In this document: one piece after another, positions 3,712-19,391 of the stretch | How the letters are laid out: every line of letters starts with the position of its first letter | Numbering within the stretch: position 1 is the first letter of the stretch | Source: a virus | Strand: one strand, 5' to 3' | Virus record (IMG/VR): IMGVR_UViG_3300031673_000319 | Coordinates: 1 to 31,081 of that record | Length of the DNA: 31,081 nucleotides | Position numbers and translations under genes: made by a program | The notes under the pieces: generated by a model | Told to the model about the DNA's origin: nothing | The model's database searches: none | Seen by the model: the letters and a program-made list of their open reading frames with translations, nothing else

Positions 3712-4925
3712 GCCTCGTGGGACGCATGGCAAGACCGAAGGCGATGAACAGCGAAGAGTTGTCTAGGATGATCTCTTCGGTTTTTGGCGGCGGGTCCACC
3801 TCTTCCGGCGTGTCGGTCAGTTCAGATACAGCCATGCGGCAGGCGACGGTTTATGCCTGCGTCAAGGTGCTTTATCAGTCCATCGCGCAGATGCCCTGTC
3901 ACCTCATGGAGCAGATAGGTGATAATAAAGAAAAGGCACTCAGTAAACGGCTCTACCGACTTCTACACGATCAACCGAACCAATGGATGACGGCCCCGGA
4001 ACTTTGGGGGATGTCCGTTGCCCACGTTTCCCTCCGGGGTGACTTCCTCGCATTTAAGGTCATGGTCGGGGATGAAGTACGTGAGCTTTTACCGATTGCT
4101 ACCGAACGGGTTAAAGAAATCACGCAGAACGCAGATTATTCGCTCACTTACAAGATAGCCTCCCCGGACGGATCAAACACAACGCCTTATCCGCAAAGTA
4201 AGATTTTACACATTCGCGGGTTATCTTTAAACGGCTATACCGGCCTGAACCCGATTACATATCTCCGGGAGTCCATCGGCCTCGGGTTGGCGGGCGAGAG
4301 ATTCCTTTCGGGATATTTCGGGAAAGGGCTACATCCGAGCGCAGTTATTACCCGTCAGAACCAGATAAAAAACATCAAAGATTACAAGGATGCAACGAAG
4401 GCGGTTTACGCTGGCCTCGCTAATTCCAGCGATCTCATGGTGCTAGAAGATGGCGAGACAATCAACTTTCCGCCCATTAAACTGGTCGATGCTCAGTTTC
4501 TCGAACTCGGCAAGTTTACGCAGTCTCAAATCTGTGGCCTTTTCCGTGTTCCCCTGATGCTGGTCCAGGCGGGGGATGCACCAACGACCTACGCCAGCGC
4601 CGAACAGTTCATGCTCGCCTTCGTCACGCACGCCCTAACCCCCATCGTCGTAAATATCGAAAAGGCGATCTATCGGGATCTCCTGACCGAAGAGGAGAAG
4701 AAACGATATTTTGCGAAATTCTCGATGGCGGGGTTACTCCGGGGAGATATGGAGTCCAGATTTAAATCCTATCAAGTGGCTATAAATTCAGAGATATTAT
4801 GTCCGAACGAAGTCCGCGATCTTGAGGATTATAACGCTTATGAAGGTGGAAACGAGTACCGAACAAGAACGTCTAGTCTGAAACAGGACGGAGAACCTCC
4901 TGTCACGCAGAAGGGAAAGAAATGA
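3708..4925 (+). CDS. Portal protein, HK97 family
   Basis: This 405-residue protein forms the dodecameric ring at the capsid vertex through which DNA enters and to which connectors attach. The block TVYACVKVLYQSIAQMPCHL near residue 47, then LLHDQPNQWMTAPELW near residue 85, is the hallmark of HK97-like portals. So is the LHIRGLSLNGYTGLNPI region near residue 164. Length is normal. It is coupled at its 5' end to the small membrane protein and at its 3' end to an HNH gene by 4-base overlaps, so the HNH insertion has not disturbed the reading frame. Confidence 0.95.
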   Translation: MSLVGRMARPKAMNSEELSRMISSVFGGGSTSSGVSVSSDTAMRQATVYACVKVLYQSIAQMPCHLMEQIGDNKEKALSKRLYRLLHDQPNQWMTAPELWGMSVAHVSLRGDFLAFKVMVGDEVRELLPIATERVKEITQNADYSLTYKIASPDGSNTTPYPQSKILHIRGLSLNGYTGLNPITYLRESIGLGLAGERFLSGYFGKGLHPSAVITRQNQIKNIKDYKDATKAVYAGLANSSDLMVLEDGETINFPPIKLVDAQFLELGKFTQSQICGLFRVPLMLVQAGDAPTTYASAEQFMLAFVTHALTPIVVNIEKAIYRDLLTEEEKKRYFAKFSMAGLLRGDMESRFKSYQVAINSEILCPNEVRDLEDYNAYEGGNEYRTRTSSLKQDGEPPVTQKGKK

Positions 4926-5653
4926 AAGTTTGCCGCCGGTGCAACAACGAAAAACCCGAAACAGCCTTTTCGAAAGGTCCACGATGCAATGAGGGACTAT
5001 CTTATTGGTGTAAGGACTGCTGCAAGAAATACAGAGAAGAAAATAGGGACCGCATCAGGCAAACGAAAAAAAAGAAGTATGAAGAAAACAGGGAATCAAT
5101 AATAGCCAAAGTGAGAGCATACAATGACTCTCGAAAGGGAGAATACAGGGAATATCAAAAAAAGTACCAAAAGGAATATCAGATACTTAATCGAGAAAAG
5201 CGCAACGGGCAAGTACGCGCATGGATAACCGCAAACCCGGAAAAATCCAAAGAGATATTCAGCAGATCGTGCGCGAAGCGACGCGGAACGGTAAGCGGAA
5301 AACTTAACGGAAACGTATCAAGGCAAATGCGGAAATCTTTGCAAAGTGACTCGAAGGCGGGACGGCATTGGGAAGAGTTGGTCGATTTCACCGTGGATCA
5401 ACTAAAGCGGCACCTCGAGAAATTATTCAGTCCCGAAATGAATTGGGGAAACTACGGCACCGTTTGGGAAATAGACCACAAGGTTCCGATAGCCGCCTTT
5501 AACTTTGAGCACCCAGGCGACATTGATTTTCGCCTGTGTTGGTCGTTGAGGAATTTACAGCCACTGGAAGCGTCGAAAAATATGAGCAAGGGGGCGCGGG
5601 TCGAAAGGCCGTTCCAACCATCATTGGCCCTTGCCGCAGGAGGATTACGATGA
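4922..5653 (+). CDS. HNH homing-type endonuclease 1
   Basis: A 243-residue free-standing HNH endonuclease. Residues 4-33 hold a zinc-ribbon-like pair of CxxC motifs (CRRC, CKDC). A long Lys/Arg-rich DNA-binding middle follows (about 35-140). The C-terminal nuclease starts at WEIDHKVPIAAFNF (catalytic Asp-His) and continues with LRNLQPLEASKNMSKGAR, which supplies the Asn and metal-site residues. It overlaps portal (ATGA at 4922) and the protease (ATGA at 5650), so it is translationally coupled on both sides. It is a clear paralogue of the HNH gene at 6484. Such genes spread by cutting alleles that lack them. Confidence 0.9.
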   Translation: MKVCRRCNNEKPETAFSKGPRCNEGLSYWCKDCCKKYREENRDRIRQTKKKKYEENRESIIAKVRAYNDSRKGEYREYQKKYQKEYQILNREKRNGQVRAWITANPEKSKEIFSRSCAKRRGTVSGKLNGNVSRQMRKSLQSDSKAGRHWEELVDFTVDQLKRHLEKLFSPEMNWGNYGTVWEIDHKVPIAAFNFEHPGDIDFRLCWSLRNLQPLEASKNMSKGARVERPFQPSLALAAGGLR

Positions 5654-7314: not shown

Positions 7315-8550
7315 ATGGCAACAATCGACGAAGTAAAGTCTCTCGTTGAAGAGCTAGGCCGGACGTTCGAGGTTTTCAAGGTCAAGAACGATGAAGAACT
7401 AAGACAGATCAAGGCCAGTGGTCACGCGGACCCGCTCTTGACTGCAGAAGTCGAGAGAATCAATGCAGAGATAACCGAAATATCCATCATGAAACGGCAG
7501 CTTGAGGCCGTCGAAACGGCGGTCGCGCGGGGAGTATTGCCCGGCGGAGGACGTTCAGAAATCGACGGAGTGAAGGCCGAGCATAGGGCAGCCTTTGAGA
7601 AATGGTTCAGGAAAGGCGGAGAGGTTCAGTTGGCGGCTGTCAGGCAGCTTCAGATTCAGGCCGGCCTTTCCACTCTCTCTGACCCCGATGGTGGGTATCT
7701 GATTGCCCCCCCGGAGTTCGATCAGGCCATTGACCGTGTGGCGGGAACGCTGTCTGCAATGAGACGACTCTGCACCGTCAGAACAATCGGCACCGATACC
7801 TATAAGAAGCTCGTCAATCAGGGCGGGTCTACTTCCGGGTGGGTGGCCGAGAAGGAAACCCGTGCCGAAACCGACACTCCCGTTCTGAAAGAAATCGCCA
7901 TCAATCAGAAAGAGGTCTATGCGATGCCTGGTTGCACGCAGGTTTCTCTTGATGATTCAGTTATTGATCTTGCGTCATGGCTGGCCGATGAAGTCACTGT
8001 TGAGTTTGCGGAAGAGGAAGGCGATGCGTTCATCAACGGCAATGGTGTCGAGAAACCCCATGGAATCGCGGCTTACTCTTTCGTCGCCGACTCCTCCTAC
8101 GCTTTCGGGAAGGTCGGATATGTTGCCAGCGGTCATGCAAGTCTGATTAACAACGTCGACAAGCTGATGGATGTCACCACGGCGCTGAAATCCATTTACC
8201 TCAACGGAGCTTCGTGGCTGATGACTCGCGCAACGATGGGCAAAATCCGGCAGTTGAAGAACGGCGAGGGCGATTACATCTGGAGAGCCGGTTTGGAAGC
8301 GGGCGCACCTAACACCCTGTTTGGTTATCCGGTTGATACGGACGACAATCTGGATGCAATCGGTGCAGGGAAGTACCCGGTGTTCTTCGCCAACTGGAAG
8401 AGGGCCTATCTGATTCTGGATCGGCTTGGGATAAGGATTCTGAGAGACCCCTATACGAGTAAGGGAAATGTATTATTCTACACAACTAAGCGAGTTGGTG
8501 GAGGAATTGTCATGTACGAGGCCATAAAATGCCTCAAAGTTTCGGCTTAG
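7315..8550 (+). CDS. Major capsid protein, HK97 fold
   Basis: This 411-residue protein builds the icosahedral head. Residues 1 to about 100 form a charged helical region matching the delta/scaffold domain that the protease removes. The mature part begins around SDPDGGYLIAPPEF (near residue 120), a classic HK97-type landmark. It continues with the E-loop and spine region (VRTIGTDTYKKLVNQGGSTSGWVAEKE, given here only as position about 160-185) and the P-domain helix around DEVTVEFAEEEGDAFINGNG. Length and position after portal and protease agree. A strong AGGAGG precedes the start. Confidence 0.95.
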   Translation: MATIDEVKSLVEELGRTFEVFKVKNDEELRQIKASGHADPLLTAEVERINAEITEISIMKRQLEAVETAVARGVLPGGGRSEIDGVKAEHRAAFEKWFRKGGEVQLAAVRQLQIQAGLSTLSDPDGGYLIAPPEFDQAIDRVAGTLSAMRRLCTVRTIGTDTYKKLVNQGGSTSGWVAEKETRAETDTPVLKEIAINQKEVYAMPGCTQVSLDDSVIDLASWLADEVTVEFAEEEGDAFINGNGVEKPHGIAAYSFVADSSYAFGKVGYVASGHASLINNVDKLMDVTTALKSIYLNGASWLMTRATMGKIRQLKNGEGDYIWRAGLEAGAPNTLFGYPVDTDDNLDAIGAGKYPVFFANWKRAYLILDRLGIRILRDPYTSKGNVLFYTTKRVGGGIVMYEAIKCLKVSA

Positions 8551-9340: not shown

Positions 9341-9814
9341 ATGAAGGATTTACACAGCAAAATTTCGGTTGTGCAGGCCATTGCGCCGAAAACATACAGC
9401 ACCGGGATTTCCGGCACGGCTGATGTTGATCTCCAGGGATATAACTCCTGCGAAATCGAGATCACCTTTGGCGATCATGCCGACACGCTCAGTGCGGCGG
9501 TTGACTTTGATGTGACGCTCCACGACTCCCCGGACACTGCCGGTGTTCATGGAGACTGGACGGATGTAGCGGCGGCAGGTCTTTTGGGCTGCATGGATGA
9601 CTACCCATCAAGCGGGATCATCCTGCATGTCGAGGATGATGCCGACACGAATCAGGTTTACAGGATCGGCTATGTCGGTGGCGAGCGGTTCATTAAACTC
9701 GACGTGGCAACGAATGGTACGCACGCAACCGGCACCATCATCGGCGTGAATGTGATTAAGGGCGACCCCGAGTTAGCACCAGTTGCAGACACCGTTCCGA
9801 CGATGCCTGCTTAA
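9341..9814 (+). CDS. Virion structural protein candidate (after capsid)
   Basis: A 157-residue, mostly beta-type protein with an AGGAGG ribosome site 9 bases upstream. It begins MKDLHSKISVVQAIAP and has the segment VDLQGYNSCEIEITFGDHAD near residue 30. That pattern is common in uncharacterised phage proteins encoded close to the capsid gene. A role as capsid decoration or stabilisation protein is inferred from position and composition only. It ends before a 87-base gap that carries two hairpins. Confidence 0.6.
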   Translation: MKDLHSKISVVQAIAPKTYSTGISGTADVDLQGYNSCEIEITFGDHADTLSAAVDFDVTLHDSPDTAGVHGDWTDVAAAGLLGCMDDYPSSGIILHVEDDADTNQVYRIGYVGGERFIKLDVATNGTHATGTIIGVNVIKGDPELAPVADTVPTMPA

Positions 9815-9819
9815 TTTAT

Positions 9820-9873
9820 TAACCCATCCCCTTTAGTGGGGTAGTCCGGGCGGGGTTATCCTGCCCCGTCCGG
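9820..9873 (+). repeat. Post-gene motif copy 1 with hairpins
   Basis: TAACCCATCCCCTTTAG at 9820-9836 is a degenerate version of the motif found after the next two structural genes. It is followed by a strong stem: CCGGGCGGGG at 9846-9855 pairs with CCCCGTCCGG at 9864-9873 with one G-T wobble. No T run follows, so it is not a typical intrinsic terminator. Confidence 0.5.
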
Positions 9874-9901
9874 GCGCAACCAATGGAAAAGGAGAAATAA
9901 A

Positions 9902-10870
9902 ATGAGCTACATTCCTAAAGTTTACAGAGACAGCGGCGGGGATCGCCAAGTAATCGCGGCGGGCGGAATCCTCAGAATGGAACCAGGTTCAATGGTTCAG
10001 TACGCAAACCCGACCGGCGCAGCGGATTATTACGTTGACGGGAATGTCTCCGCAACCGGAGAGGGGACGATTGACTCCCCGTACCTGACCCTTGCTGAAG
10101 CAATCACGGCCAGCAATTCCAGCATTGACGACGACACTACAAGATGGTGGGCGCGGAGAAACCGGATTTTTGTCATGGGCGATCAGGAGATCACTGAAAA
10201 CCTAACCATCTTTCCTGAAAAATGCGACGTTATCGGTCTTGGATTCGATATCGAGGCCATGCCAAGAATAACCGGAACCCATATCATTGCAGCTTGGGCG
10301 ACAGGCAAGGCATACGGAACCCGGTTCTTCAACTGTGGATTCATGAACAACGCCGCAGGCCCCACAGTTCATCTGGTAACAGATGAAATGGCGGTCGAGT
10401 TCCATGGATGTCTCTTCTGGCCAAAGGTAACTGGCTCAACGCATTGCATTCTGCTCGAAGATGATAATCGTGCGTTCAAGATGATTGGCTGTCGGGTTAT
10501 GGAACACGCCGCCGCTCCGGGTACCGGCATTTTTGCCGAAGGCATTAAGGTGTCAGGAACCGGGCAGCACGACATGGTTATTCGTGACAATTTCATCCGA
10601 GCTACTGAAGGAATCCATATTGAGGCTGGCACGGGTGGATATAACGGGCTTATTGTCAACAATATCATCCACGCCACGGCTTATGTGATCAATGATGCTT
10701 CCAAGCTCTGGTACGTCATCGACAATCGGCTGATCACGGATGTGGATACCGACACAGACCCGGCATCCGGTATTGTCTGTAAGGAAGAGTATGCATGCGG
10801 AAACATCATAACTGGTAGCGGGACTGAAGGCAACGCCGATACCTTCCCGTGGGCAAGGGTAGCGACCTAA
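9902..10870 (+). CDS. Right-handed beta-helix (pectate-lyase-like) structural protein
   Basis: A 322-residue protein whose N-terminal 30 residues (SYIPKVYRDSGGDRQVIAAGG) look like a virion-attachment peptide. From about residue 40 it has the DYYVDGNVSATGEGTIDSPYLTLAEAI pattern that opens parallel beta-helix domains. Repeated short strands with Asn and Gly turns follow (IRDNFIRATEGIHIEAG, LIVNNIIHATAYVI, YVIDNRLI). Such folds occur in phage decoration and adhesion proteins. No catalytic pectate-lyase motif is evident, so binding rather than cleavage is more likely. A GGAG ribosome site precedes it. Confidence 0.7.
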   Translation: MSYIPKVYRDSGGDRQVIAAGGILRMEPGSMVQYANPTGAADYYVDGNVSATGEGTIDSPYLTLAEAITASNSSIDDDTTRWWARRNRIFVMGDQEITENLTIFPEKCDVIGLGFDIEAMPRITGTHIIAAWATGKAYGTRFFNCGFMNNAAGPTVHLVTDEMAVEFHGCLFWPKVTGSTHCILLEDDNRAFKMIGCRVMEHAAAPGTGIFAEGIKVSGTGQHDMVIRDNFIRATEGIHIEAGTGGYNGLIVNNIIHATAYVINDASKLWYVIDNRLITDVDTDTDPASGIVCKEEYACGNIITGSGTEGNADTFPWARVAT

Positions 10871-10910
10871 CCTAACCCCTTCTCAGGCGGGTGTCTCCAT
10901 GAGCCCGCCT
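10868..10910 (+). repeat. Post-gene motif copy 2 with hairpin
   Basis: TAACCTAACCCCTTCTCAG (the first TAA is the stop of the beta-helix gene) is identical over 19 bases to the copy after the gene ending at 11716. It runs into a 7-bp stem, AGGCGGG at 10885-10891 with CCCGCCT at 10904-10910. The loop holds CATGA, which could pair with TCATG at 10911-10915. Confidence 0.6.
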
Positions 10911-10926
10911 TCATGAGGACAGAGAT

Positions 10927-11104: not shown

Positions 11105-11716
11105 ATGTATCTGAGAATCGGACGAAACACCCCTGCTTCGGCAGGGAGCAACGCCCCCCGGGGTGATCAGCTCGGCGGTCTTGTCGTATCGGGAGGAGAA
11201 TATCAGGATTCCATGCTCGGCGGTGAAATGTTTTTTGCCAACGCCCTGGACATGGAAGTTGCGCTCTATTCTGCCACCACTGCAATCGGATTGATTGTAT
11301 ATAACCCGCTTACCAGTGGCGTAAACATGGTGCCGTATTTGTGGGGCGTTCAGGTTTATGCGGCATCGATAGCCATGACCGGCATGGTGATTGCGATCAA
11401 TAGCCAACCAACAGATCCAACGGGTCTTACGGCAGCGCCATTGAGAGGCAAATGTCTATTGACAGGCAGCACGGGCTTGGCAGTCGGGAAATGCTCAGCA
11501 TATAGTGCCGCGACCATTATCGCGCCCGTTCTGGTGTGGCCGTTATTCGTTAATACGGTAACGATAGGAATTGTCGGTACTTACAAGACCGATGGCGATC
11601 TAAAAGGCGCCTTTGGTTTTGCACCCGGAACTTGCTGCGTTATGGGTGCTTTGGCCGCAGCCGGTGTAAACGTAAACCTCGCTCTGACCTGGAAAGAAGT
11701 TCCGGTCGGTCTGTAA
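11105..11716 (+). CDS. Virion structural protein candidate (203 aa)
   Basis: The 203-residue product begins MYLRIGRNTPASAG; a GGGAGG ribosome site lies 8 bases upstream. It is rich in Gly, Ala, Val and Thr, with many short strands and a central VYAASIAMTGMVIAINSQPTDPTG region, consistent with a jelly-roll or Ig-like virion protein. It keeps the pattern seen in uncharacterised phage proteins near capsid genes (a LGGEMFFANALDMEV segment around residue 38). A head decoration or fibre-anchor role is possible; position is the only support. In-frame codons before 11105 lack a ribosome site and overlap the preceding ORF. Confidence 0.55.
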   Translation: MYLRIGRNTPASAGSNAPRGDQLGGLVVSGGEYQDSMLGGEMFFANALDMEVALYSATTAIGLIVYNPLTSGVNMVPYLWGVQVYAASIAMTGMVIAINSQPTDPTGLTAAPLRGKCLLTGSTGLAVGKCSAYSAATIIAPVLVWPLFVNTVTIGIVGTYKTDGDLKGAFGFAPGTCCVMGALAAAGVNVNLALTWKEVPVGL

Positions 11717-11760
11717 CCTAACCCCTTCTCAGCCGGGGTGGGCACTTGACGCCCCGGCTT
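11714..11760 (+). repeat. Post-gene motif copy 3 with hairpin
   Basis: TAACCTAACCCCTTCTCAG at 11715-11733 repeats copy 2 exactly. It leads into a perfect 8-bp stem, AGCCGGGG at 11732-11739 with CCCCGGCT at 11753-11760. The loop contains CACTTG (11744-11749), complementary to CAAGTG at 11763-11768, so an H-type pseudoknot can form. Confidence 0.6.
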
Positions 11761-11762
11761 AA

Positions 11763-11855
11763 CAAGTGGCAGGACGGGCCAGGGATGCGCGAACATCCCA
11801 CCTGAAGGGTAACAGGTTCAGCCCGCCCCCGTAACGGGTAACATAAAAAAGGGGG
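11763..11855 (+). promoter_or_regulatory. Structured RNA candidate upstream of lysis genes
   Basis: The gap before the holin candidate can fold as a three-way junction. The outer stem CGGGC 11775-11779 pairs with GCCCG 11821-11825. It encloses hairpin GGGATG 11782-11787 / CATCCC 11794-11799 and hairpin ACCTG 11800-11804 / CAGGT 11813-11817. A fourth short hairpin CCCG/CGGG lies at 11828-11838. A CCCCC run at 11826-11830 could pair with the GGGGG (11851-11855) of the ribosome site for 11863. No known riboswitch class was recognised. Confidence 0.4.
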
Positions 11856-11862
11856 TAAGGCA

Positions 11863-12075
11863 ATGGGAGACGGGATAAGCAGGGAGACATTTGACGGGAT
11901 GGATGTGGATAGCAAACTCGGCGTTCTGTTTGACTATGTGAGAGACAATCACACCTGTTTCATTGATCTACGGGACAAGATGAGCAAACGGAAACGATTC
12001 GATACGGTTATGTCGGGCCTTGGCGGGATGTTCGGCGGGGCGGCGACGTTTTTGGGGATCAAGTGGAGTGGGTGA
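11863..12075 (+). CDS. Holin-like small membrane protein (XhlA-like pattern)
   Basis: A 70-residue protein with a charged N-terminal helix (DVDSKLGVLFDYVRDNH) and one hydrophobic C-terminal segment, about residues 48-67 (VMSGLGGMFGGAATFLGIKW), preceded by SKRKRF. This layout matches haemolysin XhlA-like phage proteins: cytoplasmic amphipathic domain, basic stop-transfer, single C-terminal anchor. It lies one base upstream of the lysozyme gene, the classic holin position. It would form or regulate the membrane lesion that releases the endolysin. The GGGGG ribosome site is good and could be masked by upstream RNA pairing. Confidence 0.65.
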   Translation: MGDGISRETFDGMDVDSKLGVLFDYVRDNHTCFIDLRDKMSKRKRFDTVMSGLGGMFGGAATFLGIKWSG

Positions 12076-12076
12076 G

Positions 12077-12553
12077 ATGCTGATGCTCAGAGAAATGCTG
12101 AAACGTCATGAAGGCTTAAGTCTCAAGCCTTACCTCTGCTCTCGCGTCCACATGACGATAGGATGGGGCTGGAATCTGGACGCCCACGCCCTGCCGGTTG
12201 ATATAGCGGCGTGTCTGCGGGTCACGGGGTCAATCACGGAGGCCATGGCGGAACGGCTCCTGAATATATCGATCACGAACGCAACCGATGACTGCCGGGC
12301 CATATATCCCGGTTTCGACAAACTCAGCGAGCCCCGGCGCTTCGGCCTTATCGACTTCATGTTTAACCTGGGTGTGACGAAGATACTGCACAAATTTCCG
12401 GCTTTCTATTCCGCGGCATGTCATCACGATTGGAACCGAGCAGCAGACGAGATGCAGTACACGGATGGACTTAAAAAAGACCAACTATCCGACTACTGGA
12501 AACAGACAAAGGGACGGGCGGTAGAAATAGTTGGAATGATTAGAGAGGGGTAA
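12077..12553 (+). CDS. Endolysin, T4-type lysozyme (GH24)
   Basis: A 158-residue muramidase that cuts the glycan strands of peptidoglycan at the end of infection. The family motif is clear in MLKRHEGLSLKPYL and TIGWGWN. The catalytic Glu is E12 and the Thr is T27. The residue nine positions after the Glu, normally Asp, is C21, giving E-8aa-C-5aa-T. Cys at this site is known in some natural endolysins and in active T4 lysozyme variants, so activity is expected. There is no signal peptide, so it needs the adjacent holin candidate. Longer in-frame starts upstream overlap the holin gene and lack family similarity; GGAG lies before the chosen ATG. Confidence 0.92.
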   Translation: MLMLREMLKRHEGLSLKPYLCSRVHMTIGWGWNLDAHALPVDIAACLRVTGSITEAMAERLLNISITNATDDCRAIYPGFDKLSEPRRFGLIDFMFNLGVTKILHKFPAFYSAACHHDWNRAADEMQYTDGLKKDQLSDYWKQTKGRAVEIVGMIREG

Positions 12554-12556
12554 GAA

Positions 12557-13297
12557 ATGAAAAAGCTACTTGCAATCCTAACAGTCGTACTATTCCTGGC
12601 ACTGCCGGTTTGGGCGGAGGATAAAGACGATCCGAAGCCTGACAAAGCCAAGTGTCCGGGAACCCCTATGCAAAGCGATTGCCTGACCTGCCATACCCTA
12701 TTGGGTAACAAGATGGTGTTGAAAGAGTTCCCTCCCGACGCATGGCGGACCTATCCGACCAATGTTCCAATGAGGGTGATCAGTGATGTTGGCCGTTTCG
12801 TTCTGACCGATATTGATTCACGGGGCATTTCTGAGTTCTTCGCATACCTGAATCGCCACGGAATCAAAAAGGCTGTGATTGAGCTCCATTCCCCAGGCGG
12901 AAGTCTATTCGACGCCCAGAGGATCGTCAACATAATCAAGGAATGGCAATCAGGCGGCGGCACGGTAGAAACCCGGCTTTACGGAATGGCGTTTTCTGCG
13001 GGATTCTATATTTTCGTATCTGGGGATCATCGCTTAGTTTCTGCCGATTCCGATCTGATGTGGCATGAGCTGTTATCGTTCGAAGGGTTTGGACTCAAAT
13101 TGACTACACCCTCAGACAGTGAGCAATCGGCAAAAATATTGAGGCACCTCCAGGATGTCAGAAATAATTATCTCGTCACGAGGGGCAAACTTACAAAGGC
13201 GGAACTGGATGCCAAGATAAGCCGCCGCCAAGAGTGGTGGATGACGGGCAGGGATGCCGTAGAACTCGGCTTTGCAGACGGGTTTATTGGGAAATAG
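12557..13297 (+). CDS. Exported ClpP/SDH-type serine protease with CXXCH motif
   Basis: The 246-residue protein starts with a clear signal peptide (MKKLLAILTVVLFLALPVWA, cleavage likely after A20). A C-L-T-C-H motif follows at residues 42-46, the pattern used for covalent heme c attachment, with an extra Cys at 33. Residues about 70-246 are a ClpP-like domain: LHSPGGSLFDAQ near 110-121, nucleophile Ser147 in GMAFSAG, and His170 in MWHEL. It parallels the prohead protease (Ser107/His130) but is exported. It lies 3 bases after the lysozyme gene, so it may act in the periplasm during lysis or in host modification. Whether heme is bound is unknown; the CXXC could instead form a disulfide. Confidence 0.8.
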   Translation: MKKLLAILTVVLFLALPVWAEDKDDPKPDKAKCPGTPMQSDCLTCHTLLGNKMVLKEFPPDAWRTYPTNVPMRVISDVGRFVLTDIDSRGISEFFAYLNRHGIKKAVIELHSPGGSLFDAQRIVNIIKEWQSGGGTVETRLYGMAFSAGFYIFVSGDHRLVSADSDLMWHELLSFEGFGLKLTTPSDSEQSAKILRHLQDVRNNYLVTRGKLTKAELDAKISRRQEWWMTGRDAVELGFADGFIGK

Positions 13298-17299: not shown

Positions 17300-17328
17300 C
17301 GGTTGATATTGGAGTGGTGGTGAAGTAA
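17254..17328 (+). pseudogene. 3'-end remnant of a homologue of the 16893 gene
   Basis: In its own frame this segment reads GCALAFEQKTGIEPI then AVDIGVVVK and a TAA that overlaps the ATG of the serine-rich gene (TAATG). Upstream in that frame there are stops, so only the 3' end remains. It is best read as the tail of another allele of the 16893 gene that travelled with the downstream serine-rich gene during module exchange. Confidence 0.6.
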
Positions 17329-19391
17329 TGGCGACAAGAACTTGGCACGGCGGGACAGACTCAGACTGGAACACTGCTGCAAACTGGGCAGAGAATGCTG
17401 TTCCTACAAGTTCTGATGATGTTGTTTTTGATGATTCAGCGCATACCTATACGTTGAATTTATCTGCTAATGCGGCTGCTAAATCTTTTGTTACTACGGG
17501 CACTATAAATGGGATAACATTTACATCTACTGGTTATAAAGAATTTCGTGTGTATGGCGATATAACTCTAAAATTAACAGATAATGTTTCCGTTGGTAGA
17601 TTAATTGCTGCGGCAACGGGTACTATGTCGCAAAACGGGGCGACATTAGCTAATTTTCAGGTCATTGCAGCAGGTTGTACTGTTACTTTAGGGAGTGATT
17701 TGAATACCGGTGCAGGATTAGTATATTGGACTTATGGAACGCTAGATACAAGCAATAATAATTATGAGATAAACTGCGGCGATTTTTCCGATTCTTTAAC
17801 TACACAATTTAGAGGACTAACATTAAATTCGTCTGTTTTAAATTGTAAATCTTTTATAGCCAGTCCATTTAATTTAACTATTAATGGTACTGACCACACC
17901 ATCAATATCGCCCACGGCGCCCATGCCCACGATAACTTCGGCGGTGCATCCTGGGGCATCGTCAACCTGAACCTGACTCCCACAGCAGCGGTGATCTACA
18001 ATATAGACGGCAATGCTGCCACTTTCGTGCAGTTCAATGTCAATCTTCTTGCCTCACGGGCTGATTGTCAACTCACATTAGCCCATGACATCACAACGGG
18101 CAGCGCGACCTTCACAGGTAAAGATTCAACCAATATGCTTATATTCAATTCTTCCGTCCACGAAACAGCTCGCACCCTTACCGACACGGCAGGGACAAAC
18201 ATATTCACGAACGTCAGAATTCACGACATGACGGCTGCCGGCGGGGCCGTATGGCAGGCTCTATTGACTGATGGGAATTTAGACGATGGCGGGAATGATG
18301 GATGGACGTGGGCGGCAGGGGGCGGTAGCGCTTCGGAGTCAGCCAGCATCTCGGAATCCATGAGCGAGTCGGCTTCGGAGTCAGCCAGCATCTCGGAATC
18401 CATGAGCGAGTCGGCTTCGGAGTCTGCCAGCGAGAGCGCGTCTGAATCGGCTAGTGGGTCTGCCAGCGGGTCAGCTTCAGGTTCAGCCAGCGGATCAGCC
18501 AGCATCTCGGAATCCATGAGCGAGTCGGCTTCGGAGTCTGCCAGCGAGAGCGCGTCTGAATCGGCTAGTGGGTCTGCCAGCGGGTCAGCTTCAGGTTCAG
18601 CCAGCGGATCAGCCAGCATCTCGGAATCCATGAGCGAGTCGGCTTCGGAATCTGCCAGCGGCAGCGAGTCCGGATCGGCCAGCGAATCTGCCAGCGGATC
18701 AGCTTCAGGTTCGGCTAGCGGATCGGCCAGCATATCCGAATCCATGTCCGAGTCGGCTTCGGAATCTGCCAGCGAGAGCGAGTCCGGATCGGCCAGCGAA
18801 TCTGCCAGCGGCAGCGCTTCAGGTTCGGCTTCGGAGTCCGCCAGCATATCGGAATCCATGAGCGAGTCGGCTTCGGAATCTGCCAGCGAGAGCGCGTCTG
18901 AATCTGGTAGTGAATCCGCATCAGGATCGGCATCTGAGTCAGCTTCTGGTAGTGCTTCAGGTAGTGCCTCTATCTCAGAAAGTGAGTCAGAATCTGCCAG
19001 TGAAAGTGCTTCCGAGTCGGCTTCGGAATCAGCCAGTGAATCAGCTTCTGGGTCAGAGAGTGCATCTGAATCCGAGAGCGCTTCGGAGAGTGCGTCTGGA
19101 AGTACCTCTGGTTCTGCCAGCGAATCGGCCTCCGAATCGGCAAGTGGCTCGGCTTCCGCGAGCGCGTCTGGGAGTGAATCTGCATCAGAGAGCGAAAGTG
19201 CAAGCGGGTCTGAATCTGCAAGCGAAAGTGAGTCCGCATCAGAATCCATGAGCGAGTCGGAATCCGCGAGCGCAAGTGAAAGTGCCTCAGAGAGCGCATC
19301 ACCTTCTATTGAATTTCTTTCATCACTACCAATCGTATCTGCTTACGGGGTGCATAGTGCAATCATGGGAGGTCAAATTGTCAGTGGATAG
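17328..19391 (+). CDS. Serine-rich repeat virion/fibre-type protein
   Basis: A 687-residue protein. Residues 1 to about 330 are beta-solenoid-like, opening with TWHGGTDSDWNTAANWAENAVPTSSDDVVFD, a pattern of extracellular and phage surface proteins (positions 5-35). Residues about 335-658 are almost pure Ser-Ala-Ser-Glu/Gly repeats, including SISESMSES units with a 38-residue period. The last 30 residues (from PSIEFLSSLPIVSAY) are a distinct hydrophobic end. There is no signal peptide, so virion attachment is more likely than secretion. The repeat is mucin-like: about every second residue is Ser. The enzyme encoded immediately downstream has an O-glycosyltransferase motif set. The first ~550 bases are AT-rich and the rest GC-rich, showing a mosaic gene. 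Confidence 0.75.
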   Translation: MATRTWHGGTDSDWNTAANWAENAVPTSSDDVVFDDSAHTYTLNLSANAAAKSFVTTGTINGITFTSTGYKEFRVYGDITLKLTDNVSVGRLIAAATGTMSQNGATLANFQVIAAGCTVTLGSDLNTGAGLVYWTYGTLDTSNNNYEINCGDFSDSLTTQFRGLTLNSSVLNCKSFIASPFNLTINGTDHTINIAHGAHAHDNFGGASWGIVNLNLTPTAAVIYNIDGNAATFVQFNVNLLASRADCQLTLAHDITTGSATFTGKDSTNMLIFNSSVHETARTLTDTAGTNIFTNVRIHDMTAAGGAVWQALLTDGNLDDGGNDGWTWAAGGGSASESASISESMSESASESASISESMSESASESASESASESASGSASGSASGSASGSASISESMSESASESASESASESASGSASGSASGSASGSASISESMSESASESASGSESGSASESASGSASGSASGSASISESMSESASESASESESGSASESASGSASGSASESASISESMSESASESASESASESGSESASGSASESASGSASGSASISESESESASESASESASESASESASGSESASESESASESASGSTSGSASESASESASGSASASASGSESASESESASGSESASESESASESMSESESASASESASESASPSIEFLSSLPIVSAYGVHSAIMGGQIVSG
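18331..19302 (+). repeat. Ser-Ala-Ser-Glu/Gly coding repeat array
   Basis: Low-complexity codon repeats encode the serine-rich domain. A higher-order unit starting at TCGGAATCCATGAGCGAG (or TCCGAATCCATG) recurs at 18393, 18507, 18621, 18735 and 18849, exactly 114 bases (38 codons) apart. Units 18393-18506 and 18507-18620 are identical; later units diverge by many synonymous changes. An extra 42-base unit lies at 18351. Reverse-strand and shifted frames are open only because of this repetition. Confidence 0.9.

Follow-up and report, generated by a model that had tools for sequence, protein, structure and literature searches.

Genes and features of the locus

The window analysed here is a 31-kb virus record of IMG/VR, taken over its whole length of 31,081 nucleotides. 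It encodes an HK97-type capsid protein, by which its recognisable relatives are mostly other metagenomic contigs. The product of the gene at 9341 has distant relatives in various bacterial genomes, Desulfobacterota MAGs among them; so wide a spread points to no particular host. The features considered below are centred on a gap of 146 nt (11717-11862), which extends from the stop codon of a structural-type gene to the ATG at 11863 (Table 1). The product of the structural-type gene has no Pfam or PHROG match. The 70-aa product of the ORF that starts at 11863 likewise has no match in PHROG or Pfam and is 37% identical to the protein encoded directly before lysozyme in another phage, L002. Given this position and its one hydrophobic stretch, it is reasonable to regard the protein as a putative holin. 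The one match from a search for holin proteins lies within a 529-aa ORF that is unrelated; it looked like chance and was rejected. Directly 3' of the lysozyme gene lies a gene for a ClpP-like protein (12557-13297), whose N-terminus resembles a signal peptide; this apparent signal peptide is at odds with its PHROG label of head maturation protease. Further downstream, a 114-nt repeat array (18267-19300) falls within ORF 17328-19391, which encodes a serine-rich repeat protein.

Table 1. Positions, in the window, of the genes and RNA features around the 146-nt gap
Feature	Position	Strand	Basis or remark
HK97-type capsid gene	7315-8550		
Paralogous hairpin in the previous gap, AGGCGGG-loop-CCCGCCT	10885-10925	+	loop partly complementary to 3' flank
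Upstream structural-type gene, 203 aa	11105-11716	+	ORF; relatives in L217, L219/L107, L220, L104
Copy of 24-nt repeat	11714-11737	+	other copy 10868-10891, after the previous structural gene
GC-rich hairpin, 8-10 bp, 9-nt loop GGCACUUGA	11731-11759	+	
Possible H-type pseudoknot, CACUUG 11743-11748 : CAAGUG 11763-11768	11743-11768	+	sequence complementarity
Three-way junction, outer stem 11775-11779/11821-11825, extendable by 11772-11773/11826-11827	11772-11827	+	
Junction hairpin 1, 6 bp	11782-11799	+	two compensatory double changes relative to L088
Junction hairpin 2, 5 bp	11800-11817	+	CCUG/CAGG stem invariant in L088
Predicted ribosome-site mask, CCCCC 11826-11830 : GGGGG 11851-11855	11826-11855	+	window only
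Ribosome site, start codon and first bases	11851-11870	+	AAGGCAATGGGAGA identical to L088 4937-4950
Putative holin, 70 aa, single C-terminal hydrophobic stretch	11863-12075	+	ORF
Phage lysozyme (endolysin)	12077-12553	+	PF00959, phrog_7

Folding of the gap and the three-way junction

The gap is a composite of two parts, a hairpin with a possible pseudoknot (11714-11768) and a junction that runs into the start site (11766-11870). An earlier note on this DNA had described the gap as a highly structured RNA of no recognised class, and all the stems it named are found in the sequence, one loop segment having been misplaced by one base. The 8-bp hairpin 11731-11738/11752-11759 extends to 10 bp (11731-11740/11750-11759). 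The CACTTG of its loop, put by the note at 11744-11749, lies at 11743-11748, and the complementary CAAGTG is at 11763-11768 as described. Besides the outer stem, the three-way junction comprises inner stems at 11782-11787/11794-11799 and 11800-11804/11813-11817. A CCCG/CGGG hairpin is present at 11828-11831/11835-11838, and both the CCCCC and the GGGGG run are there.

The gap folds with a minimum free energy of -65.2 kcal/mol, against -53.4 +/- 4.1 for shuffled sequence (z -2.9, 0 of 200 shuffles), and this is the lowest energy among 310 segments taken in 100-base steps over the 31 kb. A z of -2.9 or below is found in 10 of the 310, several of them within genes; the segment 11701-11849 ranks seventh (z -3.1). 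A tRNA search found none, no terminator-like site was found in the gap, and a DNA similarity search against 50,697 phage records gave no match. Rfam 15 yielded no match at gathering or permissive thresholds, in agreement with the note's failure to recognise a class. The 16-mer CCTAACCCCTTCTCAG has four matches in IMG/VR, each missing the hairpin, and these were set aside as chance.

The first part contains the hairpin that follows the stop codon. Nearly the same 9-nt loop occurs in L088, a phage whose capsid protein is 67% identical to that of the window (hairpin 4247-4265, loop GGUAGUUGA), where the hairpin occupies a different gap. The pattern GGGTGGGNANTTGACNCCC, picked after both copies had been seen, is found among 230 loci only at these two sites. 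As for the H-type pseudoknot that the note suggested, the 6-bp complementarity between loop and flank stands, with a shuffle p of ~0.01 for Watson-Crick pairs and 0.13 when G-U pairs are allowed, and so the pseudoknot alone is not decisive. Nor is it preserved as such: stem 1 varies compatibly, but the 6-bp stem 2 is preserved neither in L088 nor in the site B copy. In the previous gap of the window, the loop of the hairpin at 10885-10925 is complementary to the flank in which the ribosome site of the following gene lies (by eye, a single mismatch over 11 positions); in L107 the counterpart of this hairpin is kept and the complementarity is lost.

The second part has a homologue. A covariance model built on the window sequence alone matches L088 at 4817-4942 (28.9 bits, E 5.5e-4, 445 kb searched), and nhmmer also recovers this copy (E 3.8e-5). 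The homologous element (4843-4950) begins just 3' of the stop codon of a 180-aa structural-type gene and runs into the ATG at 4943, from which another small membrane-protein ORF is read (start MGENEESKYPTWKVIVFAACALIVWLASQGIT); L088 ends 98 nt into this ORF. Gene order up to the junction is parallel in the two phages, with a capsid gene, a phrog_5707-like gene, a second RNA (site A, below), a fibre-like gene and small genes. The strands of hairpin 1 read GGGAUG/CAUCCC in the window but GCGGUG/CACCGC in L088, which amounts to two double compensatory changes with every pair intact (P ~0.007 given the substitutions). The core of the outer stem is kept, its mismatches falling at different places. 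Overall, the two junctions differ in 7 of 38 paired columns, the compensatory pairs of hairpin 1 accounting for four, as against 9 of 17 unpaired ones, and sliding the pairing partners lowers pairing from 92% to 36-49%. Column shuffles of the alignment are equally good in 109 of 500 cases, a test to which two rows give little power, and the fold of the L088 element itself has a z of only -1.25. With a covariance model of both sequences, a search of ~185 loci, 28 whole virus records and 395 bacterial genomes turned up no further copy; the best bacterial match, in the genome L230, is a glycine-type tRNA on the reverse strand (by eye), at chance level over the 395 genomes, and was rejected. Covariation in related genomes, which had been proposed as a check, is thus seen in one relative, with two compensatory changes. 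To judge from this comparison, the leader RNA formed by the junction is probably genuine and conserved, and Rfam does not contain it.

Predicted closure of the ribosome site and known leaders

The possibility that the CCCCC run pairs with the GGGGG of the ribosome site had also been raised in the note. In the window, this pairing is strongly predicted, with a probability of 0.86 with natural flanks and 0.81-1.0 over the tested contexts containing CCCCC. The start of ORF 11863 has the least accessible ribosome site of the 32 starts in the window (0.01), and opening it costs ~3.6 kcal/mol in the model. When the upstream sequence is shuffled, 15% of the leaders are equally closed, so composition contributes to the closed site. 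In L088, however, the ribosome-site switch is missing: other bases stand in place of CCCCC, and the SD is open, its five G's being 0.68-0.98 unpaired. The idea that junction stem and mask form a mutually exclusive switch was dropped, because the 5-bp outer stem lets both form. Opening of the site by a ribosome at the upstream stop codon was considered as well; removal of the first 16 nt of the gap, which mimics such a ribosome, leaves the SD paired in a static model without kinetics or helicase effects. The sole promoter-like site (11477-11506), from a search confined to the sigma-70 type consensus, lies upstream of the gap, so that a transcript from it would contain the leader in full.

That RNA can control lysis genes is well established for a small number of model phages, namely T4 (gene e) and MS2. 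The leader hairpin of T4 gene e, which encodes lysozyme, closes the ribosome site on long transcripts and is reported to cut lysozyme synthesis ~100-fold, and the late promoters start inside the structure and thereby remove it (PMC3014915). The local pairing predicted here would similarly sequester the ribosome site of a 70-aa ORF with a putative role in lysis. Unlike in T4 gene e, the promoter-like site of the window is upstream of the leader, none of the sigma-70 type consensus being found inside, and the structure is a junction instead of one hairpin. Sequestration of the T4 type is not conserved among relatives, as the open SD of L088 indicates. In MS2, the lysis-gene hairpin is coupled to coat translation: the genes overlap, and it is a ribosome at termination that opens the hairpin (PMC12548453). 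The window resembles MS2 in having a structure at the ribosome site of a putative lysis gene that adjoins a structural gene, but 146 nt separate its start codon from the upstream gene, and masking the nucleotides next to the stop codon leaves the site closed in the model. Going by these predictions, the leader most likely resembles T4 gene e and MS2 in effect, not in build. The leader pseudoknot of T4 gene 32 binds the gene's own product (PMC3014915). A pseudoknot may form in the leader studied here as well, but it is unconserved.

Interpretation and a second RNA

The core of the gap is probably a regulatory leader, a view that comes from sequence comparison and folding. The best explanation of the whole, which we judge to have an even chance of being correct, is a two-part leader that controls translation of the putative holin and lysozyme in cis. 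On one late transcript, the untranslated leader would part these two genes from the last structural gene. Its first part would be an intercistronic hairpin directly 3' of the stop codon, of a kind present in most structural-gene gaps of this phage group, and its second part a three-way-junction RNA that is passed on in one piece with the start site. Acting in cis, the junction would lower translation of the small membrane protein, and hence of lysozyme, relative to the structural genes, and in this phage CCCCC:GGGGG would close the ribosome site. The computations show the stems, the homologue with its compensatory changes and the predicted closure of the site, and from these we infer the single transcript, the translational role in cis, the effect on lysis and any trigger. 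The note had gone further and proposed a cis-regulatory RNA that times lysis. A structured leader does stand before a small membrane-protein gene and lysozyme, but the link with lysis comes from position only; in L002, whose lysis genes are homologous, the leader lacks structure (z -0.2), and the leader of L088 precedes a different small membrane-protein ORF. Timing of lysis by the leader is a plausible hypothesis.

Among the five relatives with the same upstream gene, four have other structures in the corresponding gap and none has this junction. Single hairpins follow the homologous gene in L217, L219/L107 and L220, and the corresponding structural-operon gap of L104 contains a match to the Rfam family int-alpA (7803-7868, 38.1 bits, cut-off 35.8). 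Together with the unstructured leader of L002, these structures indicate that the junction is not linked to these lysis genes; its link appears to be with a location in the operon and with a start site. In L001, the closest relative by lysozyme, a ~300-nt intergenic region packed with hairpins precedes the lysozyme gene (4680-5000, z -6.3), and an SD-like GGGGGAGG is buried in the last of them. This independently structured leader favours closed lysozyme starts by analogy.

The main alternative, possible yet clearly less likely than control in cis, is that the gap belongs to the many GC-rich hairpin spacers which these phages keep after structural genes, where they would stabilise the mRNA or serve its processing and exert no specific control over the lysis genes; the junction would then be an elaborate example. 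Kin phages carry sequence-unrelated hairpins directly 3' of the stop codon in most structural-gene gaps, the simple hairpins in this very gap fit the same picture, and the 24-nt repeat is common to this gap and the previous one. However, L088 keeps the specific sequence and structure of the junction along with the context of the start site, a degree of conservation unnecessary for a generic hairpin. It is improbable that the junction represents an unreported family of phage leader RNAs, portable among small membrane-protein genes, that would sense a molecule or protein and switch the ribosome site of the lysis gene. Slightly less probable again is a trans-acting or processed small RNA, for instance a late sRNA released by cleavage of the structural gene's 3' UTR, which would lie near the lysis gene by coincidence. 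Int-alpA (RF02996; Rfam type 'Gene; sRNA') is likewise a three-way junction, and its match in L104 after the same gene indicates that the position can hold RNAs classed as sRNAs; even at E 10, however, it has no match in the window or L088, and both the want of a terminator-like site and conservation that runs on through the start codon speak against a small RNA. Just as improbable is a chance fold of a GC-rich gap, likeness to L088 reflecting recent common descent without selection on structure: the ten segments at z -2.9 or below, the single homologue and the column shuffles would allow it, but the unbroken, doubly compensated hairpin 1, stems more conserved than loops and the collapse of pairing under coordinate slides argue against it.

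A conserved multi-branch leader at the start of a small membrane-protein gene in uncultured tailed phages would widen the picture of lysis control by RNA and would offer an element open to direct testing.

The second RNA, site A (9821-9903), sits between the phrog_5707-like and fibre-like genes. Its covariance model matches 19 loci, with 15 distinct sequences, in related phages; in the window it matches 9821-9903 only and so not the gap. Two matches in bacterial genomes were rejected, one (L225) being outside a phage context and the other (L226) weaker. At Rfam's gathering threshold site A corresponds to no family, and sub-threshold matches are weak. In the alignment, 97.4% of cells are paired and 18 of 19 pairs show double changes, with slides giving 34-53%; the alignment was fitted to the model and is biased in its favour, and the excess is nonetheless large. 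On this covariation, site A is an unreported RNA family, far better supported than the junction in the gap, and its presence nearby suggests that the structural operon of these phages contains several structured leaders so far undescribed. The loop of the long hairpin of site A covaries with the 3' flank (none of 5000 permutations reaches the observed mean), and since this loop-flank pairing overlaps the 3' strand of the first stem, the two folds may alternate.
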